The notes under the pieces: model-generated | What the model saw: the letters and a program-made list of their open reading frames with translations, nothing else | What the model was told of the DNA's origin: nothing | Databases searched by the model: none | In this document: piece by piece, positions 5,342 through 64,000 of the stretch | Layout of the letters: the number at the start of each line of letters is the position of its first letter | How positions within the stretch are numbered: position 1 is the first letter of the stretch | Assembly (NCBI RefSeq): GCF_003589925.1 | Contig: NZ_CP032382.1 | Span: 2,356,001 to 2,420,000, forward strand | DNA from: Chryseolinea soli | GTDB taxonomy: Bacteria > Bacteroidota > Bacteroidia > Cytophagales > Cyclobacteriaceae | DNA length: 64,000 bases | Direction: 5' to 3' | Made by a program: the position numbers and the translations under genes

Positions 5342-7917
5342 ACGCGCAAGGGTAGGGTAACGGTAAACGAAGTGCCTTCGCCGGCTTGGCTGCTGAGGTG
5401 AATTTGCCCGGCCAACAGATCAACCGCTTTTTTAACGATGGATAAACCGAGGCCCGTGCCTTGAATGGTGCCCACATTGGCGCCCCGGTGAAACGCCGAA
5501 AAGATGTTTTGCTGATCTTCAGATGTGATGCCGATGCCTTTGTCTTTTACTTCTAGCTTGAGAAAATCGGGCGAATTGGTGACGCGCAGCATGACCGACT
5601 TTTGGTCCGGAGAAAATTTGATGGCATTGGTGATGAGGTTGATCAGAATGTTGCGCAGCAATTTCTCGTCGGCGGCAAACGATTTTACCGAGCACTGGAT
5701 GAACATCTGCACCTGGTGCGTCCGCATGCTCTCTTCCACCTCGCGGACGGTTTGCTGAAAAAATGTCTCGATGTCGACCTGGGTATACTTGGTATTGATC
5801 TTGCCCGCCTCGCTTTTGCCGATCATCAGGATGTCGTCCAGCAGGTAGGTCATGTGGTCCACTTGCTTTTCGATGGTGGCCAGCTTTTTTATAAAATCAT
5901 CGGCCGATATTTTTTCGCGGTGTTTTCGCAGAAAACCGGTGGCGAGCGCAATGGTCGACAACGGCGTCCGGAATTCGTGCGACGCGATGGAGACAAACCG
6001 GCTCTTCATTTCCACCAGTTCTTTCTCTTTGCGCAAAGCTTCGTTCAGCTCGCGGGTGCGCTCCTGCACTTTTGCTTCCAGGTTGACGCGGTATTCGATG
6101 AGTTCGGTGATGTTTTGACCCACCATCAGCACGCCGGTGATCTGTTGCTCTGAGTTTCTGCGGGGCGTGGTGTTGAGCAGGAAAATGAGATCGCGCTGGT
6201 CTTTCGACACCATGGGCAACTGCAGGTTGTCGAGCGGACTGCCTTTGAACGCACGCTCCAGCAAAAGCATAAATTCCTGGCGATGATCTTCGCGGATACA
6301 AAGCCCGATGTTCTTCCCCAACATTTCATTTTTGGTGTAGCCCGTAACCTGTTCGGTCACACGATTCCATTCGTTGATATAGCCGTTGCGATCGGCACCG
6401 AAGATGGGTGCATTGGCGTGCTGAATGAGTTCCGAAAGCTCGCGGGCAATGGCCGTGATGTTGCGTTCAAATTCTTTTTGGCCCGTGATGTCCTGCATCG
6501 AGCCGATCATCCGCACGGGATGTTCGTCCTGGTAGATGATGTAGGCGCGATTCAATACATACTTATATGAATCATCCGCGCACCGATAGCGGTATTGCGA
6601 GATCCAGTTGGTCCGCAGTTGGGCAAAGGCTTGTCCGATCTCCAGGTTCACGCGTTCGAAATCTTCCGGGTGAATTTTTTCTTTCCACCATTCCTTGGCC
6701 GTGCTGATCTGCCGGTCGGCATAGCCAAAGATGGTTTCGATGCCGTGGTTCCACACTTCAGAGTCGCGTTCGATGTCGCGGTCCCAAATGGCGTCGTTGG
6801 TGGCGCGCGACAGGATCTCGTAGCGTTGGTTATATTCCAGCAGCACTTCTTCAAACGTCTTGCGCTCCGAGATATCCTGGATCACGCCGAGCATCAGGCG
6901 GGCCTCATTTTCCTGTTGAATAAAATCCGCGCGCACGTGCACCCAACGAAGCGAGCCATCGTCTTTGCGAAGGATGCGGTGCTCCACGTTGAACAGCTCG
7001 CCGTTGTTTATCGCCTTAAGAGCGTCCTCTTTCACGCGTTGCAGGTCGTCGGGATAGACCAGCGCCAGGTAACTTTGCAAGGCCGGTTGATAAGCAGGCG
7101 AGACCCCAAATATTTTCCGGGTCTGGTCGTTCCACTCGGCGCGATCCGCTTCCGTGTCATAGGTCCAGTAACCGATCTTCGCGATTTCATAAGCCTTGAT
7201 CAAGAGGTGCTGGCTCTTTTGGATCTCCAGCTCGTGCAACTTGCGCTCCGTGATGATGATGGTTTCCGACTGTTGATGGATCACCTGCGTTGCCTCCAAC
7301 AGCTTGTCGTTGGTGGACGACAATTCTTCATTGATCGCCTTCAGTTCTTCGTTGGAGGCCATCAGCTCTTCGTTGGTGCGTTGAAGTTCCCGCGTTCTTT
7401 CCTGAACCGTATGCTCCAGGTTGCGGCGAGTTTCTTCCAGGGCGATGTTGCGTTGCTCGAGCTTGTTCACGAGGTCGGAACTGTACTGGTGCATCACTTC
7501 GATGGCGACGGGCGAACCTTTCGTTCCCTCCCGGCGCCGGGCCGGAGCGATCAATAATGTTCGCACCGCCTCCACCAACACATGGATCGGCGCCGGTTTC
7601 CGGATAAACAAATCGGCGCCCATGTCTTCGGCGATCTTCTCTTCGCTGAGCGACGTGTAGGTGGCGGTGTAGATGATGATGGGAATGTTGCGCAGTTTTT
7701 CGTCGTGCCGAACTTTGTAGCACAAATAATAGCCGTCGACGTTCGGCATGAGAATGTCGGTAACGATGAGGTCGACCGCTTCGGTGAGTAAGATGTCCAT
7801 CGCTTCCTGGCCATCGCGTGCGGTCAGGGTAGCATAGCCCTCGGCCTCAAAGGTGGCCTCGAGCAATTTGCGCGACAGGGCCGAATCGTCCACGAGCAAA
7901 AGCTTGTATGCGTTCAT
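5338..7917 (-). CDS. Hybrid kinase with N-terminal receiver: REC-coil-PAS x3-HisKA-HATPase
   Basis: An 859-residue soluble kinase whose receiver is N-terminal, with Asp near residue 54 in LIVTDILMPNVDG. A long Glu/Gln/Asn-rich coiled coil (about 150-240, repeats of EELxAxNEEL) connects to three PAS/PAC modules (240-365, 370-490, 500-620). A second short coil precedes the His near residue 646 in SIASHEFRTPLSTIAL. N box (LINLITNAIKF), DKGIGIT and GTGLGLSIVKK are intact. The N-terminal receiver suggests control of kinase activity by another kinase through the signalling coil (inference). It sits between two single-receiver genes, coupled to the downstream one and six nt from the upstream one. 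Confidence 0.93.
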   Translation of the reverse strand: MNAYKLLLVDDSALSRKLLEATFEAEGYATLTARDGQEAMDILLTEAVDLIVTDILMPNVDGYYLCYKVRHDEKLRNIPIIIYTATYTSLSEEKIAEDMGADLFIRKPAPIHVLVEAVRTLLIAPARRREGTKGSPVAIEVMHQYSSDLVNKLEQRNIALEETRRNLEHTVQERTRELQRTNEELMASNEELKAINEELSSTNDKLLEATQVIHQQSETIIITERKLHELEIQKSQHLLIKAYEIAKIGYWTYDTEADRAEWNDQTRKIFGVSPAYQPALQSYLALVYPDDLQRVKEDALKAINNGELFNVEHRILRKDDGSLRWVHVRADFIQQENEARLMLGVIQDISERKTFEEVLLEYNQRYEILSRATNDAIWDRDIERDSEVWNHGIETIFGYADRQISTAKEWWKEKIHPEDFERVNLEIGQAFAQLRTNWISQYRYRCADDSYKYVLNRAYIIYQDEHPVRMIGSMQDITGQKEFERNITAIARELSELIQHANAPIFGADRNGYINEWNRVTEQVTGYTKNEMLGKNIGLCIREDHRQEFMLLLERAFKGSPLDNLQLPMVSKDQRDLIFLLNTTPRRNSEQQITGVLMVGQNITELIEYRVNLEAKVQERTRELNEALRKEKELVEMKSRFVSIASHEFRTPLSTIALATGFLRKHREKISADDFIKKLATIEKQVDHMTYLLDDILMIGKSEAGKINTKYTQVDIETFFQQTVREVEESMRTHQVQMFIQCSVKSFAADEKLLRNILINLITNAIKFSPDQKSVMLRVTNSPDFLKLEVKDKGIGITSEDQQNIFSAFHRGANVGTIQGTGLGLSIVKKAVDLLAGQIHLSSQAGEGTSFTVTLPLRV

Positions 7918-7923
7918 GCAGGA

Positions 7924-8292
7924 TTACAGGTAAGGGATAATTTGATCTTTGAACCGCCGCGTGTCGATGGGTTTGGTGATGAAACCGTCGCATCCGGCGG
8001 CGAGCGCTCTTTCATGATCTTGCTTCATAGCGAAGGCGGTGAGCGCGATGATGCGGATATGACGGGTGGCGTCATTGGCTTTCAGCAGGCGCGTGAATTC
8101 CAGACCGTCGATGCCCGGTAAGGCAATGTCCATGAGGATCAGGTCGGGATGTTTTTTTTCGATGGATGCGAGCGCGCCCTCGGCATCGGAACAACGCACG
8201 ACCTGAAACCCTTCGATCTCCAGCACGTCGGAGGCCAACTTGAGGTTGGTGGCATTGTCGTCTACGATCATAATAATTTTTTCGGTCGTCAT
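7924..8292 (-). CDS. Stand-alone receiver protein (DivK-like)
   Basis: A 122-residue single receiver with acidic pair VDDN at about 10-12, phosphoacceptor Asp55 in LILMDIALPGIDG, the Thr/Ala pair of ALTAFAM and Lys in FITKPID. It resembles the DivK and CheY-like receivers that shuttle phosphate or allosterically control kinases. It lies four nt after the PAS kinase gene and six nt before the receiver-PAS kinase gene, so all four genes of this minus-strand set probably share one transcript. It may connect the two kinases (inference). Confidence 0.92.
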   Translation of the reverse strand: MTTEKIIMIVDDNATNLKLASDVLEIEGFQVVRCSDAEGALASIEKKHPDLILMDIALPGIDGLEFTRLLKANDATRHIRIIALTAFAMKQDHERALAAGCDGFITKPIDTRRFKDQIIPYL

Positions 8293-8296
8293 AGCG

Positions 8297-10102
8297 CTAG
8301 GTTAGAATGATGTGTAGAGGCATGATGATCCAGAAGGTGGTGCCGCGGCCCGACTCGCTCTCCACGCCGATCTGGCCGCGGTGAAGTTCGACGATGTTCT
8401 TGGTGAGCGCCAATCCCAATCCCGAGCCTTCATGCTGGCGGGCCATGCCGGAATCCAATTGCACAAATGGAATGAATAGCTTTTTTAAGTTCTCTTTGGT
8501 GATGCCGATACCGGTGTCGGTCACCCGCACCATGAACATGTCGTCAGCGTGTGGCATGGCGCTGATCTGCACTTCGCCACGCTCGCGGTTGAACTTGATG
8601 GCATTGGACAAAAGGTTATAAAGGATCTGCCGGAACTTGTTTTTATCGATACGGACATAGGACAGCGCCTTGGAAAGCTCCAACCGGATGGTCACTTCTT
8701 TTTTGGCGGCAATAGATTCCAGCGTGTTGATGACGCCCGTGATGACCTCGTTGAGCGAGAAGAGTTCCACCGAAAGTTCTGTTTTGCCGGATTCGATCTT
8801 GGCCAGGTCGAGCACGTTGTTGATGAGTTGGAGCAAATGTGATCCGCTGTCGTGAACATCCTGTAAGTATTGTCGTTGGCGCGTGTTGAGCGGGCCGATC
8901 TTCTGATCGATCAACAACTCCGAGAACCCCAGGATGGCATTGAGGGGCGTGCGCAGTTCGTGCGACATGTTGGCCAGGAAATCGCTCTTGAGCCGGTTGG
9001 CCTCCAGGATCTTTCGCTCGGTGATGTCGATGATGGAGGCCAGCACGAGGTTGCCTTCCTGCGACTCGATTGGATTCAACCCGATCTCTACGGGAAATTC
9101 ACTGCCGTCTTTGCGCAACGCATAAAGATCCCGACCCACGCCCATCGGACGCATCTGCGGCATGGCAAAAAAAGTGGCGCGGTAGTGTGGATGCATGTTG
9201 CGAAAGCGGGAGGGTATGAGCAACTCCACCTCTTTGCCCAACAATTCCGGCCGCGCATAGCCGAACAGTTTTTCCGTCGCGCCATTCACCAACGCAATGC
9301 GCCCTTCTTGATTGATGAGGACAATGGCATTGGGCGCCGACTCCACCACCAACCGGAAGCGTTCTTCTGCGCGTTTGCGCTCCGTGATGTCGATGATCGC
9401 GGCCAGCACCATGGGCCCTTCCGGAGTTTCCATGGGATTGAGACCGATCTCGACGGGAAACTCGGTACCATTTTTTCTGCGGGCAAACAAGTCGCGCCCC
9501 GCGCCCATGGTGCGTGTTTTCGGAGCATCCATAAACTTATCACGCCATTGGGGGTGATGATACTTAAACTGTTCCGGCAGCAACAACTCGACGGGATGAT
9601 CGATAAGCTCTTCGCGCGTATAGCCAAATAATTTTTCCGTTTGCCCGTTCACAAGATTTATTTTGCCTTCGCGATTCACCAATACCATGGCGTTGGGCGC
9701 CGACTCAACCACCAACCGAAATCTTTCTTGTGCCAACCGGCCTTCATGTGGTCGCGAGATCTTGATGAAGCCGGTAACACCAGTGTGGTCGTCGTGCAAG
9801 GCCGTGATCACCTCACTGGTCCAGAAGGCCCGGTTGTTTTTGCCTACGCGCCACCCTTCGTGCAATGCTTTGCCTTTGTCGGTGGCTTCTTTCAACAGGC
9901 TTTCGGGTATCCCGGCGGTTTGATCTTCGACGGTGTAAAACATGCTGAAAGACTTTTCCAACACCTCTTCGAGCCGGTAGCCTTTCATTTTTTCGGCGCC
10001 TTTGTTCCATCTTTTAACATGGCCTTCCTTATCGAGCAATAAAATGGCGTATTCGTCCACTTCGTCAAGTGCCTCCCAGTGAAATTCATCCGTGTTTTTC
10101 AT
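8297..10102 (-). CDS. PAS x3 histidine kinase
   Basis: A 601-residue soluble kinase with three PAS/PAC units, HisKA (His near residue 380 in ANMSHELRTPLNAILG) and HATPase (LLSNAIKF, DTGIGIT, GSGLGLALTKN). The second and third PAS units are near-identical tandem duplicates, both beginning FRLVVESAPNA and ending ITERK. The ATG at 10102 (MKNTDEFHWEA) is chosen over an upstream in-frame codon because the extra 30 residues look like translated leader. First gene of the four-gene minus-strand signalling operon. A promoter with a 5'-terminal stem-loop lies about 95 nt upstream. Confidence 0.9.
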   Translation of the reverse strand: MKNTDEFHWEALDEVDEYAILLLDKEGHVKRWNKGAEKMKGYRLEEVLEKSFSMFYTVEDQTAGIPESLLKEATDKGKALHEGWRVGKNNRAFWTSEVITALHDDHTGVTGFIKISRPHEGRLAQERFRLVVESAPNAMVLVNREGKINLVNGQTEKLFGYTREELIDHPVELLLPEQFKYHHPQWRDKFMDAPKTRTMGAGRDLFARRKNGTEFPVEIGLNPMETPEGPMVLAAIIDITERKRAEERFRLVVESAPNAIVLINQEGRIALVNGATEKLFGYARPELLGKEVELLIPSRFRNMHPHYRATFFAMPQMRPMGVGRDLYALRKDGSEFPVEIGLNPIESQEGNLVLASIIDITERKILEANRLKSDFLANMSHELRTPLNAILGFSELLIDQKIGPLNTRQRQYLQDVHDSGSHLLQLINNVLDLAKIESGKTELSVELFSLNEVITGVINTLESIAAKKEVTIRLELSKALSYVRIDKNKFRQILYNLLSNAIKFNRERGEVQISAMPHADDMFMVRVTDTGIGITKENLKKLFIPFVQLDSGMARQHEGSGLGLALTKNIVELHRGQIGVESESGRGTTFWIIMPLHIILT

Positions 10103-45175: not shown

Positions 45176-45514
45176 TCTAATATAAAATCCACTATAGGTT
45201 TCCTCTTGTGTAGGTATAATCCCGTAGACGAAGAATGGAAAAATTGATCGCACGGGTGTTCGCGCTTTGCCCGTAATTCTCTTTTTGGGCTGAAGATTTC
45301 TCGTTTTAAGAAAAATGATGCACCGATAGCTTGCAGCGCGTGGTGTGTCCGTTGTGACAATCATTTTAAATGGACAAAATATTACATCGGCGCGATTTTT
45401 CGAGGCCCGATAGTACCACACATAAAATCTAGTTTTAAATTTCCGTGTTATTTCGGTCGTTAGCTCCATTTGCTGAAAGACTTAAGTTACCCAAATGATA
45501 ATCACCGTAGGTCT
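45176..45514. other. Intergenic region before the giant T9SS gene
   Basis: About 339 bp with no coding character. It is A/T-rich and should contain the promoter for the giant gene. Candidate boxes are weak and I would not call one. No hairpin or repeat was noticed. Confidence 0.4.
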
Positions 45515-48500
45515 ATGAGACGAATTCTACTGTTTTCCCTGTTAATTTCTTCCCTTTCATCATACTCCCAGCTTTCGCCTTCATCCGGAAGTTTTCAGGG
45601 GATATGGGGTGGCAAATCGATATTTGGTGACCTCGACAACGATGGTGACCTGGATTTGATCGTATCGGGCAATACCAATTTTCTCAACACTACCTCGACC
45701 ATTTATCGCAACGATGGCAATGGAATTTTCACGGCCGTAGCCACGCTGGCCGGGACAAACGACGGCAGCGTCGACCTTGGCGATTACGACCAGGACGGGT
45801 TGATCGATATTTTGATGGTGGGCAGCATTGAAAACACGACGAGTGTCGGAACGCTTCTTCTCAAGAACCAAGGCAACTTTCTGTTTCAAAAAACCAGCCA
45901 TTCCCTCCCTAACATCATTTGGGGCGAAGCCAAGTTTGCGGACTTCGACAACGACGGAGACGAAGATGTAGTGGTGCTGGGCTCGAACATATCGGACAAC
46001 TATCATGATATCTTTATCAACACCAATGGCGTCTTTAAAGCCCTTGGTTTGAACCTCGCCAGGTATAGCGACCCCGCCATAAGTATCGGTGACTACGACC
46101 TCGACAGCGATCTCGACTATGTTGTGGTGGGATCAGGCACGTCCAACACACCTGCGATTTTCAAGAACGAAGGAGACAATAAGTTTGTACCCGTTTCCAT
46201 TTATGACAATCCCATCTCCGATGGAGCCGTGGCCTGGGGAGATTTTGACAACGACCGCTACCTGGACCTGGTGATCATGGGATTTGACGAGATATTGGCA
46301 ACCGATCGGATGGTCCTATTGAGAAACACAGGCGCCGATAAATTTACAAATGTGGCTACTCCCTTCGAAGGTGTGTCGGGAGGGAATGTAGTGCCGGGAG
46401 ACATGGACAATGATGGCGATCTTGATGTTATTGTTACCGGTAGAAAACGAAGCAGTACAACGGTGGCCAGTACGACGGCCTACTTCAATACGAACGGTGC
46501 CTTTGCAAAGCAAGCCATTGCACTGCCGGCCCTTACTTTCTCCAATGTCACACTCGGCGATGCCGATAACGATCTTGACCTGGATCTGGTGGTGTCGGGT
46601 TCAGAGATCGGCAGCCTCCTGAATGGTAAGACTTACCTTTATTTGAATTCACCCACCACAGCCAATACAAGACCAACCGCCCCGGCTTCACTTCAGGCTA
46701 CACCGGATGGTCAGCAGGTAAAATTGTCGTGGGGTGTAGGTACGGATGGTCAAACACCATCAAGCGGGTTAACGTATGCCCTCTATGTCAATAGTGCTCC
46801 GGGTCAAAATCATTCCGGCGAAAGTTTATCGACGGCTGCCGGATTCAGAAAGGTTGTCAAAATGGGCATCGCTCAACACAATCCGTCATGGAAGGTTGAT
46901 AACCTGGCACCGGGCACTTACTATTGGGGTGTTCAATCCATCGATGGAGGCTTTATGGGCTCGCCCTTTAGTACAGAAGGAAGTTTTGTCATTGGAAGCA
47001 ATTCTCCGGTGCTGACCACGCTGTCTTCGCTTGCCGAACTGGCCGGTAGCTCCATCATCATAAAGGGAAAGAATTTCATCGGAACGTCGTCGGTAAAGTT
47101 AAAGGGTGTGGAAGCCGTTTTTCAAGTCATCAATAGTACAACACTAAAGGTGGTCATCCCCACGGTGACAGGGGCAGGCAATTTCGCGGTAACCAATCCG
47201 GCGGGAACAGGCACTTCGTCACAATCTTTCTGTGTTATTCCTGCAAAACCCGTTTTAACCGGAAACACCAGTGTTTGTCCCGGGGTAGAATCTTATCAGG
47301 TAAACGGTATTGCGGGCGTGATGTACCACTGGACGGTGGACAATAGCAACGGTGAAATCGTTGAGGATAATAACAGCCAAGTAAAAATTAAATGGCGCAG
47401 CCGAGGACAATCCGTTGTGCGCGTAGTGCCCGAAAGTTGTGAAGCCGGCCCCGAAAGCACATTGGCCGTCCAGATAAAAGGGCCCGCGCTGAAACAAATA
47501 TATGGCAGTGTTTCGCCCAAAACTGAATCGATTGAACAATACTACGTCAGTTACGTTGCCGGCGAAAGTTACCAATGGACCTTGACGCGCGATGGACAGA
47601 CCGTGGGATCGTCTAATTCTTCGGACTTCACCATAAAATGGACGCAGCCTGGAGCATATGCTCTGCGCTTGAACACTAGCAATGCGGAATGTGCTGCAGC
47701 ACCCGTCGAACAAGTCCTCACTTTCGATGTCGTGCTGAATGCTTTCAGCTATCACTCCCAGATGCCATTTGATGTCACGAGCAGCCTGTCGCTGGCAGAT
47801 CTTGACAATGATGGCGATCAGGATTTTATCGCCAACGGAAATAGAATTTTCGAGAACATCATGCCGGCCGGATTTCGGGAAAAGACGTCGTCGCTTCCGG
47901 TTTCTACAAATGTTCGCTTTGCCGACACCGATGGTGACAATGACCTCGACATTTTGATGACCTACCGAAACGCACCCTACTACACGATAGCTGAATTCGA
48001 AAACCAGGGTGATTTCAAGTTCGGGGCAGCCAAAAAAGTAGCGGATAATCTATCGACACCCGTGGCAGATTACATCGACTTTGATAATGATGGTGATCTT
48101 GATATTGTTTCCATGGGGTCGGCCAGTATCCTGGTATTCGAACGCCTTGCCTTGAATAGCTTTCTCCGGACAGAGGCCTACACGCCTGTAGAAACAGCAA
48201 GCCTGAAGGGAGCAATGGATATCATCGATTTCAATGCAGATGGAAAGCAAGACATCGTTACCGGTGCCGGAGGAGTTTTTCTGAATACCGGGGCAAAATC
48301 GTTCGTTGCTCAAGTCATTAACTACCCTCAGACTAACGGCGGATTTGTGAAATGGGAAGATATGGATCAGGATGGCGACTTTGACCTGGCTTACGGTGGC
48401 ACAAACAGTATTGAACTGTATCAGAACAATGGCAACGCTTTTGTCAAGATCTATACCGATCCCAATGCTCCTTTTTCGTCTGTGCAATTTGCAGACATGA

Positions 48501-51500
48501 ATGGCGATGGCTGGAAAGATTTGGTTTCGGGTCAGCGGCCCGTGCGTGTTTCCTTCTATGATCACAGCAGCAATTCCTTTGGCAATATCATACAACAATT
48601 CGATGCCTTTGGCGCGTGGCGATCCACCGACAGTTCGTTGTCTGGCGTGATGGATTTGAATAAGGATGGAAAAAATGATTTGATGCTTTACTGCACATTT
48701 CTAAGCAATTCGTCTCTGCAATTTTTCACGAACAATGCGGAGGCCACATTGCCACCCACCCCGGTTCAATCACTGGCATCGAAGGTGGCTGGCAACGAGG
48801 TCACGTTCACTTGGCAAGGCGATGCAGCAAAGTCATTTGAGGTTATTGTCGGGACAACGCCCGGAGCGTTGGACAAAGTCTCCACAAGAAGTGATCTCAC
48901 ATCAGGCTATCGCAAAGTGCCCGTCATCGGAAATGCAGGCAACCGGAATTCCCTCACCTTAAGCAAGCTCTCACCAGGTACATATTATTGGAGCGTGCAA
49001 GCCATCGACAACGCCCTGCGCGGATCTGTGTTTGCAACGCCATTGTCTTTCACCATTCAAAACCCCCTGTTGAACGCACCGGATCAACTCCGGATTTCTT
49101 CGACGTCTGCGGGCATTTCGCTGACTTGGAAAGATAATTCCGATAATGAAACTGGTTTTATCATTGAACGATCCAGCGGAGTCGCGGCGAATTTTGTGCA
49201 GGTTGGCACGGTGGCGTCAGGCGTAACGGTTTTCAATGAGTCTATTTCCCTCGATGAAAATCAATACTACAGAATTAAGGCGTTTAACGACAACGGCCAG
49301 TCCTACTACAGCGAAATTATAGGTACCCCCGATGCGGTTATTTCTACTTTTCCATATTTTGAAAGTTTTGAAACGACAACCAGTCCATGGCACCAGCTTG
49401 ACGATCAGGAAGAGAGACTGATCTATTCCCCTTACCAACCTAACAACTGGACCCGGTACAGCAACGTTTTTGGCAGTATAGACGGTAAGTATTCTCTTCG
49501 CATCGAAGAGCGGTACGAATCGACGGCATACACGGTGGGGATTGAAAGTCCATATTTCGATATGTCGCGAATGACAAATCCTTGCCTCGTTTTCTATGTG
49601 TCAGGACCCCAGCAGGATTTGTCGTCATCGGTCAGTGGAATCAGAGTCTACGCTTCCGCGGACCAGAAAAAAACCTGGAGCAATATTTATGGTTTTGCAA
49701 CAGGATCGTCTGGTTGGACGCGACTACAGGTTCCATTGCTTACCTACAAAACAAATATTTCAAAGCTGCGCGTCGTCGGATTGCTTTCCTCCAACCAATT
49801 GCAAGTATTGGCCTTCGACAATATCAGGATTGTTGAATGCCCAACGGATCCGGGCAACCCCAAGGTTACCCAGTCGGGATCCAGCGACTTATTGTTAACC
49901 TGGACTGAGTCATTAAACGCATCGCAATATTTTCTGGAAAGAAGCGTGGACAACGGTTCGTATAAGGCAATCGACACCTTAGATGCCCCGGTAACTTCCT
50001 ATCTCGACAAAAACCTGGCCACCGGCAAGACCTATCGATACAGGATGTATACCGTGAATAATGAAGGACCGGCCTATTCCAACTATGTCAGATTCTCTGC
50101 GACGATGTTGTCAATTGCTCCGGTGGTGGAACACATAGCCGATCAGGAAATGAAAGCCATGTCCCAATTTTCGGTCGAGATGAAGGTCACGGACGATACA
50201 CCCGTTGCTTCGCTGAATATTACGGCCGAATCGGGCAACACATCGCTTCTTCCATCCGGAAATATTTCGATCGAAAAGAAAGTTGGCGTCATGGTGATAA
50301 AAGTAGTTTCCAATACAGAAACGACCGGCAGCTCCCTGATAACGATAAAAGTAAACGACGGGACCTATACTATCGAAAGCGCTTTCGGTCTCACCATCAA
50401 AGAAAAGAACGTTGCCCCGGTGATCGTCTCTCAAAAACAAGTGAACACCATAAACGAAGATGCTTCATGGACGATGGCAATAGACCAGCTTGTCGTGGAG
50501 GATACGGATAGCGACATCAGTCAACTGAAATTAATGGTGCTTCCAGGGGCGGATTATTCGGTTTCCGGAAATGTAGTAAGTCCTGCAAAGAATTTTAACG
50601 GCACCTTGTCGGTTGCGCTCCAGGTCAGCGACGACGTCGACGCCAGCGAACCCTTTGAATATACGTTGAAGGTCGCCGCCGTAAATGATGCACCGGTCAT
50701 AAAAGGAACCTCACCGTTGGGCAACTTCACGGAGGACCAACCGATATCCATTCCTTTAAGCATGCTTCAGGTCGAAGATCCGGACAATGCTTTTCCAGGT
50801 GATTTTTCAATGATCATCACGGCTGGTCAACAGTATACAGTACAACAAGGCACGCTTATTCCTGCCAAAGATTTTTATGGAACCTTAACCGTTCCCGTCC
50901 AAGTCTCCGACGGTTTGGCGTTAAGCAATGTATACGAACTTAAATTGACACTAACACCGGTGAATGATCCACCGGTTGTATCCGGGACGAATGGGCCTTT
51001 TGTCGCCAACGAGGATGAGCGATTCGTCATTCCGGTAAAGCAGTTGGTGGTGAAAGATCCGGATAACCAACTGGCAGAATTGTCATTTGTCCCCGAGCCC
51101 GGAGCGCATTTCACGATTTCGGGTGGATATATCCTTCCGGAAGAAAATTTCAACGGAACGCTCAAGGTGATGGGAAAAGTATTTGATGGAATGAGTTACA
51201 GCGATGCCGTTGAAGTGGCTGTGACGATAGTGCCCGTCAACGACATCCCCGTAGTGACGAACAGCCGCGCATTATCCGTGAATGAAGATCAGGAGTTTGC
51301 AATTCCCCTGGCGTTGTTTGACGTCTCTGATCCCGACAATGCGTTCCCGCAAGACTTCACACTGGATGTGCACGATGGAACAAATTATAGCGTTCGCGAT
51401 GGCCTGATCATTCCGGATAAAGATTTTTACGGAACGCTCGAAATACCCATTGCGATGAATGACGGAGCAGATGCTTCCGAGCCATATAATTTTCAAGTCG

Positions 51501-52324
51501 ACGTGTTGCCAGTCAATGATGCTCCGAAGGTACTTGGACTTCGGGAAGCCCTTACATCGCCGGAGGATACCCAGGTCACCATCAAGCCAGATGTGCTGAT
51601 CATAGAAGATGCCGACAATGTGACCGCTGATCTTCGTGTCATCGTCCTCGCCGGGGAACATTATTCGGTAAACGGGAATGACATAACACCGGGAAATAAT
51701 TTCAATGGCAAAATACTGGTGTCGGTCAGGGTAAGCGATGGCATAGCCAACAGTGAAGTATTTACTATTCCAATGGATGTGCAGCCCGTTAATGACCCTC
51801 CCGTCATCGAGGGAGCGAATAGATCCTTTACTTCGGCAGACGGTGAGCCTATTGCATTGGATGTAAAAGATTTTGTCGTAGTGGATCCTGACAACGAATT
51901 TCCGGTGGATCATACCTTGATCGTTCTCAACGGTGATCACTATACGTTTGAGGGAAACATTATTTCGCCGGTGAAAGGATTTGCCGGAACTTTAGAAGTA
52001 TCCATCCAAATATCAGATGGAACCGATGTTAGCAATACGTATCGTGTAGAGGTAACGGTCGAGCCGGTCTTGGCTGTTGAAGAACACAATTTGGATGGCG
52101 TAACACTTTACCCCAACCCTAACCGCGGAAAATTCAGATTGAGTCTTCCCTCGATCACAGAAAGGGTGTCGATATCGATTAGCGATAATATGGGACGTAA
52201 ACTGTATGACAACAGCATCACCGGCTCTGAAGTGGAGTTAGATCTTCAGATGGCTCCGGGCATGTATGTCCTTGAAATGGCTTCGGGCAGCAAAAAGGTT
52301 ATTAGGAAGTTTATTGTGAACTAG
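45515..52324 (+). CDS. Giant T9SS cargo: FG-GAP, IPT, PKD-like, FnIII and six cadherin-like repeats
   Basis: A 2269-residue secreted protein from the ATG at 45515 (MRRILLFSLLISSLSSYSQ signal). Order: FG-GAP/VCBS repeats (about 30-390), FnIII, an IPT/TIG-like domain (LKGVEAVFQVINSTTLKVVI), PKD-like domains, and a second FG-GAP block (about 755-1070). FnIII domains and a jelly-roll-like region (FESFETTTSPWHQL) follow. Six tandem cadherin-like repeats of about 90 residues have linkers of the type VNDPPVVSG. The Por sorting domain (LYPNPNRGKFRLSL to VIRKFIVN) ends it. A calcium-stabilised surface adhesin is the likely role. It is followed by a strong terminator. Confidence 0.9.
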   Translation: MRRILLFSLLISSLSSYSQLSPSSGSFQGIWGGKSIFGDLDNDGDLDLIVSGNTNFLNTTSTIYRNDGNGIFTAVATLAGTNDGSVDLGDYDQDGLIDILMVGSIENTTSVGTLLLKNQGNFLFQKTSHSLPNIIWGEAKFADFDNDGDEDVVVLGSNISDNYHDIFINTNGVFKALGLNLARYSDPAISIGDYDLDSDLDYVVVGSGTSNTPAIFKNEGDNKFVPVSIYDNPISDGAVAWGDFDNDRYLDLVIMGFDEILATDRMVLLRNTGADKFTNVATPFEGVSGGNVVPGDMDNDGDLDVIVTGRKRSSTTVASTTAYFNTNGAFAKQAIALPALTFSNVTLGDADNDLDLDLVVSGSEIGSLLNGKTYLYLNSPTTANTRPTAPASLQATPDGQQVKLSWGVGTDGQTPSSGLTYALYVNSAPGQNHSGESLSTAAGFRKVVKMGIAQHNPSWKVDNLAPGTYYWGVQSIDGGFMGSPFSTEGSFVIGSNSPVLTTLSSLAELAGSSIIIKGKNFIGTSSVKLKGVEAVFQVINSTTLKVVIPTVTGAGNFAVTNPAGTGTSSQSFCVIPAKPVLTGNTSVCPGVESYQVNGIAGVMYHWTVDNSNGEIVEDNNSQVKIKWRSRGQSVVRVVPESCEAGPESTLAVQIKGPALKQIYGSVSPKTESIEQYYVSYVAGESYQWTLTRDGQTVGSSNSSDFTIKWTQPGAYALRLNTSNAECAAAPVEQVLTFDVVLNAFSYHSQMPFDVTSSLSLADLDNDGDQDFIANGNRIFENIMPAGFREKTSSLPVSTNVRFADTDGDNDLDILMTYRNAPYYTIAEFENQGDFKFGAAKKVADNLSTPVADYIDFDNDGDLDIVSMGSASILVFERLALNSFLRTEAYTPVETASLKGAMDIIDFNADGKQDIVTGAGGVFLNTGAKSFVAQVINYPQTNGGFVKWEDMDQDGDFDLAYGGTNSIELYQNNGNAFVKIYTDPNAPFSSVQFADMNGDGWKDLVSGQRPVRVSFYDHSSNSFGNIIQQFDAFGAWRSTDSSLSGVMDLNKDGKNDLMLYCTFLSNSSLQFFTNNAEATLPPTPVQSLASKVAGNEVTFTWQGDAAKSFEVIVGTTPGALDKVSTRSDLTSGYRKVPVIGNAGNRNSLTLSKLSPGTYYWSVQAIDNALRGSVFATPLSFTIQNPLLNAPDQLRISSTSAGISLTWKDNSDNETGFIIERSSGVAANFVQVGTVASGVTVFNESISLDENQYYRIKAFNDNGQSYYSEIIGTPDAVISTFPYFESFETTTSPWHQLDDQEERLIYSPYQPNNWTRYSNVFGSIDGKYSLRIEERYESTAYTVGIESPYFDMSRMTNPCLVFYVSGPQQDLSSSVSGIRVYASADQKKTWSNIYGFATGSSGWTRLQVPLLTYKTNISKLRVVGLLSSNQLQVLAFDNIRIVECPTDPGNPKVTQSGSSDLLLTWTESLNASQYFLERSVDNGSYKAIDTLDAPVTSYLDKNLATGKTYRYRMYTVNNEGPAYSNYVRFSATMLSIAPVVEHIADQEMKAMSQFSVEMKVTDDTPVASLNITAESGNTSLLPSGNISIEKKVGVMVIKVVSNTETTGSSLITIKVNDGTYTIESAFGLTIKEKNVAPVIVSQKQVNTINEDASWTMAIDQLVVEDTDSDISQLKLMVLPGADYSVSGNVVSPAKNFNGTLSVALQVSDDVDASEPFEYTLKVAAVNDAPVIKGTSPLGNFTEDQPISIPLSMLQVEDPDNAFPGDFSMIITAGQQYTVQQGTLIPAKDFYGTLTVPVQVSDGLALSNVYELKLTLTPVNDPPVVSGTNGPFVANEDERFVIPVKQLVVKDPDNQLAELSFVPEPGAHFTISGGYILPEENFNGTLKVMGKVFDGMSYSDAVEVAVTIVPVNDIPVVTNSRALSVNEDQEFAIPLALFDVSDPDNAFPQDFTLDVHDGTNYSVRDGLIIPDKDFYGTLEIPIAMNDGADASEPYNFQVDVLPVNDAPKVLGLREALTSPEDTQVTIKPDVLIIEDADNVTADLRVIVLAGEHYSVNGNDITPGNNFNGKILVSVRVSDGIANSEVFTIPMDVQPVNDPPVIEGANRSFTSADGEPIALDVKDFVVVDPDNEFPVDHTLIVLNGDHYTFEGNIISPVKGFAGTLEVSIQISDGTDVSNTYRVEVTVEPVLAVEEHNLDGVTLYPNPNRGKFRLSLPSITERVSISISDNMGRKLYDNSITGSEVELDLQMAPGMYVLEMASGSKKVIRKFIVN

Positions 52325-57788: not shown

Positions 57789-57823
57789 CGCTTGTGGCTC
57801 TGTGCACTAAATGACGGTCTTGT

Positions 57824-57980
57824 AACAACATTCATCGTGTAAAGGTTATCGCCAATAACTCGGTTTAATCTAATATGGCAACGATCGGTCCCGTTCTTGT
57901 GGAGGTGTGAGCGCCCAAAGTTGCATTAAGTGAGGGTAGCTTCCATCACCATACGCTTATCAACGACTCTCTTTAGATAA
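57824..57980 (-). pseudogene. Decayed 3' end of a second PutAbiC-type gene
   Basis: 157 bp matching 59239-59397, the last 45 codons plus about 20 nt of 3' flank of the intact PutAbiC-type gene. In translation LKR(I/V)VDK, then PHL..LW..TPPQE and IKPSYW are shared. The remnant has a one-base deletion between those parts (ATGGATAGC versus ATGGAAGC) and a TGG to TAG stop just before IKPSYW. Its upstream coding part is absent, replaced by the two-gene cassette at 58002-59100. Confidence 0.85.
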
Positions 57981-58005
57981 GACACTGCCTAATAAAGTGT
58001 CTTAT
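57977..58005 (-). terminator. Hairpin at the end of the unknown two-gene cassette
   Basis: A perfect 10-bp stem (ATAAGACACT / AGTGTCTTAT, 9-nt loop) that includes the stop codon of the 58002-58568 gene. It lies exactly at the boundary between the cassette and the PutAbiC remnant. T-rich sequence follows on the plus side only, so termination on the minus strand is uncertain. Confidence 0.5.
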
Positions 58006-58568
58006 TCTTTTGGCCTCCTGATATGCCAAACTTCTCGCATCGTTCTAATTTGCTGAGAAGACATCTTAAGTGATTCTTTTTTTGAGTATCCTTCTCGACG
58101 ATAGTTATTTGATAGGGTGCCGGCAAGGAGGGCGTTCCATTTATTGTCAAAGGCAACGTCAGGTACTTCAATCAATATGGAGTTCTCGCCGTTGATATCC
58201 CTGGCGCGATCACCCGGTTTTCCTGCTTGTAGAAAGAAACCTCTGGACTGAATGATTCCGTCAATAAGCGAGAATTCTTTGGTCAACTGAAATACAATGG
58301 CGAAGGTGATTTCCAACGGTTTGATGAATTCCAGATGTAAAAAAATCTCTTTTGGTTTAAATAGGGTTTTTGATCGCCCCCATGTGACTTTCGTGTCGCC
58401 TGAGGTAGTCAAGAGATGCATTTTAATAAGGTCCGAAATGCCGGGAAATTCAACGGCATTTATAACCAATATTGGAAGAAGACGACCTTCAGCCAGATTA
58501 GGGCTAGAGATCATGCCATTGTGCATTATAGGAACGACATGGTTTATCTCAATTTTATTTTGACTCAT
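58002..58568 (-). CDS. Defence-region protein of unknown function (cassette gene 2)
   Basis: A 188-residue soluble protein. The N-terminal 130 residues have an alternating beta pattern (HVVPIMHNGMIS, PILVINAVEFPG, EIFLHLEFIKPLEITFAIVFQLT). The C-terminus is basic and helical (NNYRREGYSKKESLKMSSQQIRTMREVWHIRR). No known family recognised. The start overlaps the stop of the preceding membrane-protein gene by 14 bases, so the two are coupled and probably form a complex or toxin-immunity style pair (inference). Confidence 0.7.
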   Translation of the reverse strand: MSQNKIEINHVVPIMHNGMISSPNLAEGRLLPILVINAVEFPGISDLIKMHLLTTSGDTKVTWGRSKTLFKPKEIFLHLEFIKPLEITFAIVFQLTKEFSLIDGIIQSRGFFLQAGKPGDRARDINGENSILIEVPDVAFDNKWNALLAGTLSNNYRREGYSKKESLKMSSQQIRTMREVWHIRRPKE

Positions 58569-59100
58569 GTAGAAAATCTTTTAATAGAAAACATTCGGCA
58601 AATGCCACATTTCCTCCCGTGTCAATAGCATTGATAAGAAATCTTTCAATACGACGGCCCCCAAAAATTTTTGCTGGTTCTTCGAAGATAAGCCATTTTG
58701 ACTCTGTAGACCTTTCTTCAATCCGGATATCAGCCGGAAACGATGAAAGTGACTGAGGCAGAAACTTAACGTGAGACGGTTCATGGTCGAGGGTAACTCT
58801 AGAAACAGAGTCATCTTCTTTTACATATTCGATTTGGAGCGTTGACCTGTATCCTCCTTTTGAGTCAGAATGATTTGTAATTGTACAATGAAAGAAAATA
58901 AACTTCCGTGGTTCTGCTTCGCGATTTATCCATCGGTAGCCATCGATGAGGTATACAGAAAAATTTGCCTCCCTTTTCTGATGGTCAATGCGTGATAGCT
59001 CAAGCGCTTTTTTTGCAATTCGATTACTGTTATAGGCATAAAATGCGGAAAGAATCGCTGCGATTGTCGCAAACATTGTCAAGTAATCCTGTTGATGCAT
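58555..59100 (-). CDS. Membrane-anchored defence-region protein (cassette gene 1)
   Basis: A 181-residue protein. One N-terminal membrane helix (LTMFATIAAILSAFYAY) is followed by a short coil (NRIAKKALELSRIDHQKR) and a beta-sandwich-like body (FIFFHCTITNHSDSKGGYRSTLQIEYV). The anchor-coil-sandwich form is common in uncharacterised membrane sensors beside defence genes. Coupled to the next gene by a 14-bp overlap. 161 nt downstream of the intact PutAbiC-type gene, a gap containing nothing recognised except the end of the repeated PutAbiC tail. Confidence 0.7.
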   Translation of the reverse strand: MHQQDYLTMFATIAAILSAFYAYNSNRIAKKALELSRIDHQKREANFSVYLIDGYRWINREAEPRKFIFFHCTITNHSDSKGGYRSTLQIEYVKEDDSVSRVTLDHEPSHVKFLPQSLSSFPADIRIEERSTESKWLIFEEPAKIFGGRRIERFLINAIDTGGNVAFAECFLLKDFLHESK

Positions 59101-59261
59101 AACAGCTAATGTGAGGTCGATAATGCTTTACAATTTATTAAATTCCATTGATTTTCTAAAGTTGCCCCGCCTTTGCAGCGTTTTCAAGCTACAGTTTGAG
59201 CGAGCTATTCAAGGCGAAGAGATGTTTTTCTAGACTTTAACAACATTCATTAAAGAAAATG

Positions 59262-60203
59262 TTATTGCCAATAACTCGGCTTAATCCAATATAGCAACGA
59301 TTGGTTTCCTTCTTGCGGAGGTGTAGGACTCCAAAGTCTCAGTAAGTGAGGGTAGCTATCCATTAAAATGCTCTTATCAACGATTCTCTTTAAATAACCC
59401 TCCGGTACTTTGTCCTCGCTGTTCAAACTTTTAAGCAATTCATACTTTTCAATCAAGGGAAAAAATTTTTGACCATAGTCATGAAGGCCGTTATAAGCTA
59501 TAAGTAAGATTTCGTAATTAGACAATTGGGCCCTGAGAATTTTGATGAATTCCAGTTTTTTGCTGTTGCTCAATGAAGACCTTTCTGCAAATCTGACAAT
59601 ATGGTAAAGGTTTCTGAAATAGTGACTGAGATCACTTTGATGTAGATGGAAAAAATGGTCATATATTAGCAATAACAACTCCTTTCCTTTTTTGCCAAAG
59701 CAACGGCCTCTGAGTCGTTCGTCTATCTCATATAATGGCTTAGGTTGATATTTAACGATGAAAAACTGGGAATGCGGAAGGGTAGCAAATGGCTTAAATT
59801 GAATTGCATCCGACTGGCACAGAGTTTCATAGTCTACAGCAATTCTTTCTGCGATATCGTCAAAAAATTCTCTGCCTTTGCTTGCAGATCCTATTCCCTC
59901 GATTTCCGTATTTATATTGTCAATGAGCTTGTGATGCTGATCGATCAGTTTAAAAAAATTGTTACTGAAGTTTTGTGCAGTATTGCTCTGAAGGTTTGCA
60001 ATTACAAGTAGTGTACTTCCGAGCGTTAAAAGAGGAACGACAAGCCCAGTAACAAACGGGTGAATATCTTTCGCTTTAGTAGCATCAGGCCTCAGAAATT
60101 CACCACCCAAGTAACCGCCAAAGACTAAGTACCAAAATGTCAACGATGTGGCTGCCACCAATAAAATATATGCTAGCGTTGTGATGGAAAATAGATTTTT
60201 CAT
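59262..60203 (-). CDS. PutAbiC-type putative phage abortive-infection membrane protein
   Basis: A 313-residue protein. Two N-terminal membrane helices (about 8-32 and 50-70) are followed by the helical cytosolic domain of PutAbiC proteins: NNFFKLIDQHHKLIDNI, SDLSHYFRNLYHIVRF, LEFIKILRAQLSNYEILLI and the Tyr/Leu-rich KFFPLIEKYELLK. The family is named for AbiC-like phage abortive infection in lactococci; its mechanism is not established. It lies 44 nt after Vsr on the same strand. A degraded copy of its 3' end at 57824-57980 shows that this gene was once duplicated here. Confidence 0.85.
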   Translation of the reverse strand: MKNLFSITTLAYILLVAATSLTFWYLVFGGYLGGEFLRPDATKAKDIHPFVTGLVVPLLTLGSTLLVIANLQSNTAQNFSNNFFKLIDQHHKLIDNINTEIEGIGSASKGREFFDDIAERIAVDYETLCQSDAIQFKPFATLPHSQFFIVKYQPKPLYEIDERLRGRCFGKKGKELLLLIYDHFFHLHQSDLSHYFRNLYHIVRFAERSSLSNSKKLEFIKILRAQLSNYEILLIAYNGLHDYGQKFFPLIEKYELLKSLNSEDKVPEGYLKRIVDKSILMDSYPHLLRLWSPTPPQEGNQSLLYWIKPSYWQ

Positions 60204-60247
60204 TTAAGGAGGTGACTTTTGTTTTCCAAGGCTAAAACTTCATCCAA

Positions 60248-60655
60248 CTATTCGCTAGTGAGTTTCGTGAAAAGTTTATCCAAAAATTCGCTTTTTCTCA
60301 ATTGACATTGCCAGACAGTAACAACACGCCAGCCCGCTTTTTTAAGGACCCTGCTTTTAGTTCTATCTCTTAACCTGTTTGCTTCTACCTTTTGTTTCCA
60401 AAAGACACTATTTGTGTCAGGCAGCTTGTAGTATTTGCAATTTTTATGGCCATGCCAGAAACAGCCATGTACAAATATTACTGTTCGCAATTCTGATAGA
60501 GTAAAATCCGGTGTTCCCGGAAGAGACTTTAGATGTTTTCGATATCGAATTTTGTTTTTTCGTAAAAGTCTTGACAGTATTCTTTCAGGCGCAGTATTTT
60601 TCGGGCCGACTCGTGACATCATCCACGACCGCTTCTCTTTTGTTACTGTATCCAA
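60248..60655 (-). CDS. vsr: Very short patch repair endonuclease
   Basis: A 135-residue Vsr. The elements MSRVGPKNTAPE, PGTPDF (catalytic Asp) and VIFVHGCFWHGH (catalytic His region) are intact, with Cys/His zinc ligands (HKNCKYY, WQC). It nicks 5' of T in T:G mismatches left by deamination of 5-methylcytosine, protecting the methylase site from mutation. Start is TTG at 60655, five nt after the GHKL ATPase stop; the next ATG would delete the conserved N-terminus. Its presence beside the C5 methylase is the standard arrangement. Confidence 0.95.
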   Translation of the reverse strand: MDTVTKEKRSWMMSRVGPKNTAPERILSRLLRKNKIRYRKHLKSLPGTPDFTLSELRTVIFVHGCFWHGHKNCKYYKLPDTNSVFWKQKVEANRLRDRTKSRVLKKAGWRVVTVWQCQLRKSEFLDKLFTKLTSE

Positions 60656-60660
60656 ATTAT

Positions 60661-62340
60661 TTATTTAATTGTGCCCCCTGAACTCAGTAAGATCTTGACC
60701 CTGTCTTTAATATTCTCATAAACTGAGTTCAACTTTCTCTTTGCTTTTTCTGTCAGTAATGCAGTATGAGCAAGTGCGTCTCGGATGGGTTTGTATTCGT
60801 TTGCGTCTCTTGACAGGCTTGCTTGCTTTAGTTGATCCCCTTTGTCGACCAAATAGCTCAGATCATCCATTGACAGATAGCTTAAATCGCTCCCTTTTTG
60901 CCTGATTTCAATACTGAGGTTTCCTTTGCCTTTGTTTTCAGTTTCTTTTTCTTTCCACCTTTTTACCACTTTTTGCGCTTCTGTCGAGAGAGATATATTT
61001 TGGTCGCTAATGTATTTTCGAACCAGGTTCTCTGAAATGAAACATTCCGCGTAAGAGCCGAAATTGAACTCGGCATCCTTTTCCAAGTCATCTACCCATT
61101 GGAGTACTTTGGTTCTATTCTTGGACTTTTCCGGTGGCGTATATTCTGCTGACACGGCATTGAACAAATCTCTTGATGTCCGTTCCTTGACTGTCATTCT
61201 AGGATTCTCCGAGTCGCCAGGTAATCGATACTTGATTCTCAGGCGATCCCAGTCATCGATTACTTTTTTCATTATTTCATCTCTAAAATTTTTCAGAAAG
61301 AGCTGATACTTGGTGTCATCCGCTACCACGCCTTCCCTATCGCTAGTAAAACGATCTTTATCGCTGTCATCCAGTTCGTCAAAGTGAATTTGTCCATATA
61401 AATAATCTTCAACAATTCGAGCAGTGGGGATGTGCTTAAGGATGTTTTTCTCCCGCAATCGGCCATTGACAAAAAGATCAACGCTAACTCTTTCATCTAA
61501 ATTCATGATGTTCAAATCGCGAGGTTTGCCAACGGTTGCCAAAAAACCCCGGATGTTACTTTTTGAATCGATCGTTTTTCGCTCCTTAACATTGGCAAGT
61601 TGCTTTTTAACGTATGGATCTTCTATCTCATTTACGTTCCATAAAAACTCGGTTTTTTCTGAAAGGTCATCAAGATCACTGAGTGAAATTTTGTTGTTAT
61701 CGATGAATATATTGAACGACTTATCAAGTAGAGAAAAACGAAAGTATAACGCGATTAATTTTCTAAGGATAGCAAGACTGCTCTTAATTCCACCTTTGAT
61801 ATCTTCGAAATGGATGATCGATCCATGGCCGTGATCGGTCATATATTTTTTAAGGCCCTTTGATTTCTCACGCCAGGAACCTAATGGATACTGCTGGGGT
61901 GTAAGATCATTGGTAATTGCTAGGTCAAGGCCAGAATTGTCGATCACACCACCGACATATTCCCCTTTCTTTGTTTTCGATATCACGGTAATTCTTTCTG
62001 CGCACGACAATAGGGCTAGTTTCCCGATTCCTTTTCTGCCAATGAAAGGCCTTCCCTTCGATGATTTAGATTGTCCACCCTGGCGCTTTGAGTAACCGAT
62101 TTTTAAGAATTTGTTCTGAAAGTCATCAGCGGTCATTCCGATACCATCGTCTTTGATTACGAAATTGTTATTTGATTTGTCGATATAAATCCAAACGTTC
62201 TTGGCGTCGGCGTCCCAGGCATTTGAAATGGCTTCACCCAAGACGGTGATGAAGCTTCTGTAGAGGTTTCTCCCTAGATGGTTAAGTACACTCAGCGAGA
62301 TGTTGAACGAAAATTCATCGAGTTTTATTTTTTTTGCCAT
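60661..62340 (-). CDS. GHKL (MutL/MORC-like) ATPase of an R-M-type locus
   Basis: A 559-residue protein with an N-terminal GHKL ATPase: GEAISNAWDADA (Mg-binding Glu/Asn), KDDGIGMT and the lid GRKGIGKLALL. A transducer-like beta-alpha region follows (about 200-350), then a charged helical C-terminus (about 400-550, with RWKEKETENKGKG). No MutL endonuclease motif is seen. MutL/MORC-like ATPases in restriction-modification loci were described by Iyer, Abhiman and Aravind and linked to the origin of MORC proteins. Likely role: ATP-driven clamp or remodeller controlling cleavage. Overlaps the methylase gene by 26 bases. Confidence 0.88.
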   Translation of the reverse strand: MAKKIKLDEFSFNISLSVLNHLGRNLYRSFITVLGEAISNAWDADAKNVWIYIDKSNNNFVIKDDGIGMTADDFQNKFLKIGYSKRQGGQSKSSKGRPFIGRKGIGKLALLSCAERITVISKTKKGEYVGGVIDNSGLDLAITNDLTPQQYPLGSWREKSKGLKKYMTDHGHGSIIHFEDIKGGIKSSLAILRKLIALYFRFSLLDKSFNIFIDNNKISLSDLDDLSEKTEFLWNVNEIEDPYVKKQLANVKERKTIDSKSNIRGFLATVGKPRDLNIMNLDERVSVDLFVNGRLREKNILKHIPTARIVEDYLYGQIHFDELDDSDKDRFTSDREGVVADDTKYQLFLKNFRDEIMKKVIDDWDRLRIKYRLPGDSENPRMTVKERTSRDLFNAVSAEYTPPEKSKNRTKVLQWVDDLEKDAEFNFGSYAECFISENLVRKYISDQNISLSTEAQKVVKRWKEKETENKGKGNLSIEIRQKGSDLSYLSMDDLSYLVDKGDQLKQASLSRDANEYKPIRDALAHTALLTEKAKRKLNSVYENIKDRVKILLSSGGTIK

Positions 62341-63391
62341 GATGCTTACGGATATGACTTCGGATCGATTTGCCGATTACAAACCCAAGCTCTACTGGCA
62401 CCGCATTTCCGATGTGAACACCAAGGTTAGTCAATTGAAAATCTTCATGCTCATCTTCAATGAATTTGTAATCCGCAGGAAATGTTTGGAGTAGCGCTGC
62501 TTCTCGCACAGTCAAAGCTCGATCCTGTGTTGGGTGACCGAAACGCCCCGTGCCATAGTTATAGAATTGAGTTGTGATCGTCGGAGCTGGTTCATTCCAG
62601 GTCATTCGGCCATACACCGATTTATAGCTGTCTCCCGATTCGCGTGAATGGCATGCTAACCTAAGTTCTTCGTCCCAATCAAGCCAGCTTCCGTTAGGTT
62701 TGGAAGCCTTTATCCTTTTAAGATTGAGATCGGTGAGTTTTGTCGTCCTATGGAGGGGGTCAGTTTTACAAATTTCGCCGGATTGAACGGGCGGTAAATG
62801 GCCAATTGCCTCTTTAGTGGTGACAAAGTGCGGGTCTTCATGGGTACTTGGAATAAGTTCTATCTTCCCGAAACGTGACGCCAATAAGACTAGCCTGCGT
62901 CTCTTTTGAGGAATGCCAAACTCGGGACAATAGACGTTCGAATAAGAGACATGGTATTTTTTGGATTCCAAGAAGTTTATGAAGTCTTCAAAAATTTTTT
63001 GGTTTGACAAGTTCGGAACATTCTCCATGGAAACTATGTCGCATCCTGTTTCATCAATTAGCCGGACGAACTCGTTCAGAAGTCGCCACCTATTGCCTTT
63101 CTTTCTATGCTTGTTTTTGTTAGTGTGTGATGAGAAAGGTTGACAGGGCGCGCATCCCACAAGTATTTTGACTCGATCGTCGTCTGACCAGTAATCTTTT
63201 TTTAGCTGCTTCCCATTCAATTTAGCAATATTCTGAGCAATAAAGTCTGCCTTCACATTCGCCTTGTATGCGTATTCACAGGTGTCATCGATATCAATTC
63301 CTGCAACCATGCGGATACCGGCTTTCTTCATGCCGTATGAAAGCCCCCCTATACCACAGAATAAATCAATCGCTGAAATTTTCACTTTCAA
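62315..63391 (-). CDS. DNA (cytosine-5) methyltransferase
   Basis: A 358-residue C5 methylase with motif I (DLFCGIGGLSYGM), IV (GCAPCQPFSSH, catalytic Cys), VI (ENVP), VIII (QKRRRLVLLAS) and X (GNAVPVELG). The target domain lies about 190-290; its recognition sequence cannot be read from the protein. The start is TTG at 63391 or GTG at 63385, since no ATG precedes motif I. It follows the partial gene by 71 nt and is coupled to the GHKL ATPase. Together with Vsr it indicates an m5C-based restriction-modification system. Confidence 0.95.
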   Translation of the reverse strand: MKVKISAIDLFCGIGGLSYGMKKAGIRMVAGIDIDDTCEYAYKANVKADFIAQNIAKLNGKQLKKDYWSDDDRVKILVGCAPCQPFSSHTNKNKHRKKGNRWRLLNEFVRLIDETGCDIVSMENVPNLSNQKIFEDFINFLESKKYHVSYSNVYCPEFGIPQKRRRLVLLASRFGKIELIPSTHEDPHFVTTKEAIGHLPPVQSGEICKTDPLHRTTKLTDLNLKRIKASKPNGSWLDWDEELRLACHSRESGDSYKSVYGRMTWNEPAPTITTQFYNYGTGRFGHPTQDRALTVREAALLQTFPADYKFIEDEHEDFQLTNLGVHIGNAVPVELGFVIGKSIRSHIRKHHGKKNKTR

Positions 63392-63462
63392 TAAAAAAAT
63401 TTAAGAGGTTACAGAAAAAATAAATTTGTTAAAACAGATTTTGTCAATTGCTTCAAATTTAA

Positions 63463-64000
63463 TCATTTCTTGCTGAATACAAATGCCTGCTTGAAGACAT
63501 TTGGAACAACTATCGTGGGATAGACAAAAGTCTTGTTCTCACTTACCGGACTTCCTTTCTTCCCAGTCACAGCCATTATCCAAAGCGTAGGTATAGAATC
63601 GGCTCGTGCCTGCTTTTGCTCGTCCCCACTTAACGTACCGGATGAAAGGAATCCTCCCTCTTCAACATTTCTTGAGGCAAGACGGAACTTCAAATTGACA
63701 TTGTTACCTAGTCTTTGTTGTAACTTTTCCAATACTGAGTCTATTGTTTTGTCATGCCAAGAATTTTGTGATCTGGTCTTTATCATGGCGACTATTTCGA
63801 TGGCACGATCAGTAGAAATTTTCGCGCCTGTTCTGCCTCTTTTGTCCATTTCTTTTAGGTCAGTAATTCCGCCCAATTCTTGTGATATCATTCCTAACAC
63901 CGATCGGTACGTATTGAGTGTCTGCGGTAACTTTATATAGTTAGGATATATTTGAACGCCAGACCATATGACGTCTGTCGCATTGATGTCCAGTACTCCT
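63463..64000 (-). CDS. Unknown protein in the position of a restriction endonuclease (5' end outside window)
   Basis: The frame is open through the window edge for another 33 codons beyond the first internal ATG (63900), so the protein starts outside. The visible 178 residues include TGAKISTDRAIEIVAMIKTRS, a Gly/Asn-rich loop and LWIMAVTGKKGSPVSENKTF. I do not recognise the family and no catalytic D-(D/E)xK pair is certain. Its place just upstream of the methylase on the same strand is where the cognate endonuclease would be expected (inference only). Confidence 0.6.
   Translation of the reverse strand, partial: GVLDINATDVIWSGVQIYPNYIKLPQTLNTYRSVLGMISQELGGITDLKEMDKRGRTGAKISTDRAIEIVAMIKTRSQNSWHDKTIDSVLEKLQQRLGNNVNLKFRLASRNVEEGGFLSSGTLSGDEQKQARADSIPTLWIMAVTGKKGSPVSENKTFVYPTIVVPNVFKQAFVFSKK

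Follow-up and report, generated by a model that had tools for sequence, protein, structure and literature searches.

A minus-strand gene island in Chryseolinea soli that most likely comprises three independently mobile units

The window analyzed here, a 64,000-nucleotide (nt) stretch of the Chryseolinea soli genome (contig NZ_CP032382.1, positions 2,356,001 to 2,420,000), contains an island at 57819..64000 whose listed genes all lie on the minus strand. Most likely, with a probability of roughly three in four, this island is no single composite immune system but a row of three neighboring units, each mobile independently of the others: a restriction-modification unit of known type, an abortive-infection gene on its own and a two-gene cassette about which little is known. 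The restriction core comprises a protein with PF10593, HNH_2 and NUDIX domains (63463..64000; 111.5, 43.1 and 65.9 bits against cut-offs of 25, 21 and 21.1, respectively), a C5 cytosine DNA methylase of 358 amino acids (aa) (62315..63391; PF00145, 193.7 bits, cut-off 22; TIGR00675, 121.6 bits, cut-off 100.65), a 559-aa GHKL ATPase whose gene overlaps that of the methylase by 26 nt (60661..62340; PF13589, 75.2 bits, cut-off 25) and a 135-aa Vsr endonuclease (60248..60655; PF03852, 93.2 bits, cut-off 27; TIGR00632, 129 bits, cut-off 97.85). The passages of Iyer, Abhiman and Aravind (2008; PMC2292703) on MORC/paraMORC restriction-modification operons describe GHKL proteins together with a methylase, Vsr and a superfamily II (SFII) helicase bearing the motif DThhQXuRhFG, which is fitted by the stretch DTMHQHARMFG in the protein encoded from 63463..64000. 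Judged by its sequence, the restriction core, with its GHKL domain, adjoining C5 methylase and Vsr, and SFII helicase motif, fits the operons described in those passages, and the earlier note on this DNA was right to call restriction-modification plus GHKL a described association.

Next to this core lies the gene of a 313-aa PutAbiC abortive-infection-like protein (59262..60203; PF16872, 77.8 bits, cut-off 22) with two N-terminal hydrophobic segments (hydropathy peaks at residues 10-28 and 50-68) and weak matches to the PADLOC models of lactococcal AbiC (1.7e-6) and AbiP (1.3e-5). The gene is ordinary for its kind, which elsewhere in the opened loci is a lone gene, and both it and the restriction core are of kinds already known. 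On the opposite (plus) strand at 60206-60215, directly before the PutAbiC start codon, stands AAGGAGGTGA, the sole copy in the window and the next 10 kb, so that an anti-Shine-Dalgarno-like stretch would be present in any transcript of this region. The cassette, separated from PutAbiC by 161 nt, consists of gene A (58555..59100; 181 aa), recognized by conservation of the pair and by hydropathy and encoding an N-terminal hydrophobic segment followed by a soluble domain, and gene B (58002..58568; 188 aa, soluble), which overlaps A by 14 nt. A relic at 57819..57980, again on the minus strand, repeats the PutAbiC 3' end in decayed form: compared with 59235-59397, 134 of 165 alignment columns are identical (local score 165 versus at most 27 in 200 shuffles), and at the protein level identity is 66% across PutAbiC residues 282-313, with one internal stop. 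The cassette is thus flanked by an intact PutAbiC and by the tail of a second PutAbiC copy, which suggests that the two were joined through recombination at a PutAbiC gene.

Linkage of the parts was then surveyed in 20 distinct other GHKL loci (L104 repeats L103 and was counted once), 11 other PutAbiC loci and nine other cassette places. A methylase of the same type adjoins the GHKL gene in 17 of the 20 GHKL loci, and Vsr lies at most one gene from the methylase-GHKL pair in eight of them; PutAbiC and the cassette each occur in none (0/20). The closest GHKL relative, L101, is exactly methylase-GHKL-Vsr, with no PutAbiC behind. Likewise, a GHKL gene of the window type and the cassette are each absent from the PutAbiC loci (0/11), as are the GHKL core and PutAbiC from the cassette places (0/9). 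The earlier note had proposed that a known module was extended by PutAbiC and the cassette; across the loci surveyed both adjoin the methylase in this genome only, an outcome that the note itself had named as refuting its proposal, and the gene order methylase-GHKL-Vsr-PutAbiC-cassette, which it put forward for a search across genomes, recurs in none of the 20, 11 and nine places. Several points weigh against separating the island into three units. Only 12 of 29 other GHKL places, four of 27 plasmid records and one of five PutAbiC plasmid matches were opened, and contig ends cut off several of the surveyed loci. PutAbiC locus L062 encodes a 615-aa protein with a C-terminal PutAbiC domain (6644-8491) close beside Vsr and two other C5 methylases, and the G114 contig has a distant GHKL ATPase (E 2e-11) some 34 kb from PutAbiC. 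Finally, the shared minus strand and short gaps leave room for some or all of the genes to be co-transcribed, as they may be to judge from their layout.

The GHKL protein divides into two parts. Its N-terminal two thirds are matched by two PADLOC REase_II models, and NF050001, which represents the BbrUII/HgiDII enzymes, covers residues 10-374 only, at 294.7 bits against a cut-off of 550. The C-terminal third carries two HEPN-like motifs, E437-x3-R441 and R520-x4-H525 (R520-D-x3-H525). In an alignment of nine members of this subfamily of about 550 aa (the window protein, L018, L019 in pieces, L071, L072, L101, L102, L103 and L105) E-x3-R and R-x4-H are invariant in all nine, and R[NDH]xxxH is found near the C-terminus in none of nine GHKL relatives of 624-690 aa. 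Anantharaman et al. (2013; PMC3710099) give, in the passages concerned, R-x4-6-H with a polar residue after the R, and an upstream E-x3-[KR], as HEPN hallmarks, a definition to which the C-terminal domain of the window protein conforms. The same passages report that in restriction neighborhoods paraMORC ATPases are fused to HEPN domains of the Ymh type, and propose that these fusions act like PrrC and RloC. The window protein resembles these fusions in being a GHKL ATPase beside a methylase with HEPN hallmark motifs in its C-terminal domain; it differs in having no Hypoth_Ymh (PF09509) match, the search giving no family for it at E <= 10, whereas control loci L079, L081 and L082 match, and the HEPN assignment comes from the motifs alone. 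Telling against it, the predicted model of the C-terminal domain, although helical, is poor (predicted local distance difference test (pLDDT) 49.9, with much below 50), and Foldseek (among the matches listed), PDB-profile, Pfam and hhalign tests gave no HEPN for this domain; in that poor model the motif residues sit in and after helices, as HEPN needs.

From these motifs we give about even odds that the GHKL protein is an RNase effector. The suggestion in the earlier note that the GHKL ATPase is a sensor is plausible. Somewhat short of even odds stands the alternative that the protein cuts DNA as a Type II restriction enzyme like BbrUII and HgiDII, the unit then being plain restriction-modification. 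This is favored by the NF050001 and REase_II matches, by the alignment of the N-terminal 374 residues with those enzymes and by their shared C5 methylase partner, the constant neighbor in 17/20 loci; against it, the NF050001 match ends at residue 374 and stays below its cut-off, the model exceeds the window protein by about 100 residues, and the C-terminal third of the protein is a different, unrelated domain whose motifs are invariant within the subfamily, R[NDH]xxxH being missing near the C-terminus of the longer relatives. Three further observations concern GHKL genes: a second, distant GHKL ATPase gene of about 750 aa lies in the same genome (G000:C1:3769787-3770143; L098 4922-7174), on Celeribacter plasmid pP73D an IS1380 element interrupts the GHKL gene (L019 5660-9092) and the methylase is still open, and in a viral contig genes for a 130-aa membrane-like and a 266-aa protein follow directly after the methylase-GHKL pair (L105 8293-9495).

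Protein A of the window has no match in Pfam, NCBIfam or PADLOC; no model of PADLOC-DB 2.0.0 is matched by A or B or by any of 23 B-family members, and overall the cassette is without an informative match in Pfam, NCBIfam, PADLOC-DB 2.0.0 and PHROGs, a negative that covers these libraries and not the published literature. Gene B is rare in genomes, occurring in one of 198 of the class and one of 395 of the phylum (both times this genome alone), in two of 150 genomes in the family of a Hymenobacter genome, and, when genome contigs were put through a pattern-limited scan, at one locus. By profile search, B belongs to a family of at least 166 proteins, the window member included, with source names among them Rahnella, Klebsiella variicola, Shewanella, Pseudomonas and Rhizobium, and none of 120 listed family proteins has a Pfam domain. 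Gene A found no relative in a single-sequence search. The nine other cassette places are the near-identical Rhizobium plasmids L021 and L022, Hymenobacter L025, its relative from the same family L095, and the viral contigs L026, L028, L029, L030 and L031, with L028 and L031 nearly the same. In all nine, A lies directly upstream of B, and in the places measured, with frames taken from the first start codon, the two overlap by 4 to 50 nt or are 1 nt apart. When the Rhizobium rows are left out of the A profile, it recovers the Rhizobium A gene at 4.6e-19, and a profile check of all loci gathered found A and B at the same loci and neither singly. In L095 (7803-8375) gene A is split into two frames and B stays open.

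Present on plasmids and in phage-derived DNA, the cassette is clearly mobile. In L028, L029 and L031 it stands between a baseplate-assembly and a tail-completion gene (by PHROGs in the first two and by near-identical frames in L031). On the P2 gene table of PMC3091744 this corresponds to the orf30 position, with V on one side and S on the other, which is among three regions that commonly carry foreign genes. In L030 the cassette is flanked by a replication-nicking gene, which we read as gpA-like, and an integrase, and in L026 by a tail gene and an integrase; both contigs are in our judgement P2-like. The cassette thus resembles accessory defense and exclusion loci of P2-like phages in its variable places, V-S in three viral contigs and beside a gpA-like gene in one. 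It differs in that its proteins have no PADLOC match and in that the relevant passages of Rousset et al. (2022; PMC9122126) and Vassallo et al. (2022; PMC9519451) put the defense hotspots at gpA-gpQ and fun, orf30 being named in the passages seen as a variable region only. The Rhizobium copies have genes annotated as ABC-three component system in their vicinity and precede a PIN-domain gene. From this context we infer a putative defense role; two of the nine places (L025 and L095) lie among ordinary genes, a point against our main reading. Beside the cassette in L030, at 986-2220, a pair of genes encodes proteins of 140 aa and 271 aa that no Pfam family matches well, the larger with a TIR-like stretch by eye.

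The seven A proteins measured have a single N-terminal hydrophobic peak (weak in the window protein, 1.26 versus 1.19 elsewhere), followed by a net charge of +2 to +3 over 15 residues. By the positive-inside rule the positively charged flank of a membrane segment faces the cytoplasm, so the rest of A would lie there. B yields a confident predicted model (pLDDT 89.7) without a close match in PDB or BFVD, and its residues invariant over 16 sequences (G28, P32, G57, D58, L77, P84, G116 and R178) form no catalytic signature that we recognized. We consider it slightly favored that A and B are a membrane-tethered pair sensing or blocking infection at the membrane. Unlikely, in our estimation, is a toxin-antitoxin or prophage fitness pair without a defense role, in which B neutralizes or stabilizes the membrane protein A: the small size and overlap of the genes, the membrane anchor of one product and their occurrence on plasmids and viral contigs would suit it, as would the absence of a match in the defense library, but the variable loci of P2-like contigs, rich in exclusion genes in the P2 passages cited, suit defense at least as well. 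Antitoxins usually evolve fast, unlike B, which is better conserved than A.

The single composite system of the earlier note, with restriction first, abortive infection second through PutAbiC and the cassette, and the GHKL ATPase as common sensor, draws on a shared strand, mostly short gaps and parts each plausible in defense, and is very improbable given that the 20 other GHKL loci lack both additions, every part is also found alone, and the cassette border has the 161-nt gap and the relic; that note's identification of the C5 methylase, GHKL ATPase, Vsr and PutAbiC stands, and its composite interpretation is not supported. We advance tentatively, and as doubtful in its entirety, that A and B are a new, widely mobile anti-phage or superinfection-exclusion pair and that the GHKL protein represents another branch, the second and without Ymh, of GHKL-HEPN proteins that are coupled to a methylase and cut RNA in response to unmodified DNA. 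Here A would be membrane-anchored and face the cytoplasm, B would be its dedicated soluble partner with a fold not close to any solved structure found, and the pair would be common to Hymenobacter-type bacteria, Rhizobium plasmids and P2-like prophages.

Two plus-strand genes adjoin the island (L002 13475-14194 and 14345-15058, equivalent to window positions 67475-68194 and 68345-69058), one with HNH_5 and one without a Pfam match, and they may extend the island onto the plus strand. Elsewhere in the window, a plus-strand frame at 45470-52324 encodes 2284 aa and looks by eye like a repeat protein that is secreted and has a sorting domain at its C-terminus.

With the tempting composite system set aside for want of support, two testable items remain, the cassette family and the GHKL subfamily. 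The cassette is a two-gene family without annotation; P2-like viral contigs carry it repeatedly at their variable loci, which are often home to phage-exclusion genes. The conserved motifs of the methylase-coupled GHKL subfamily predict RNA, not DNA, as its target; if this is true, these units would be self/non-self-gated abortive systems.
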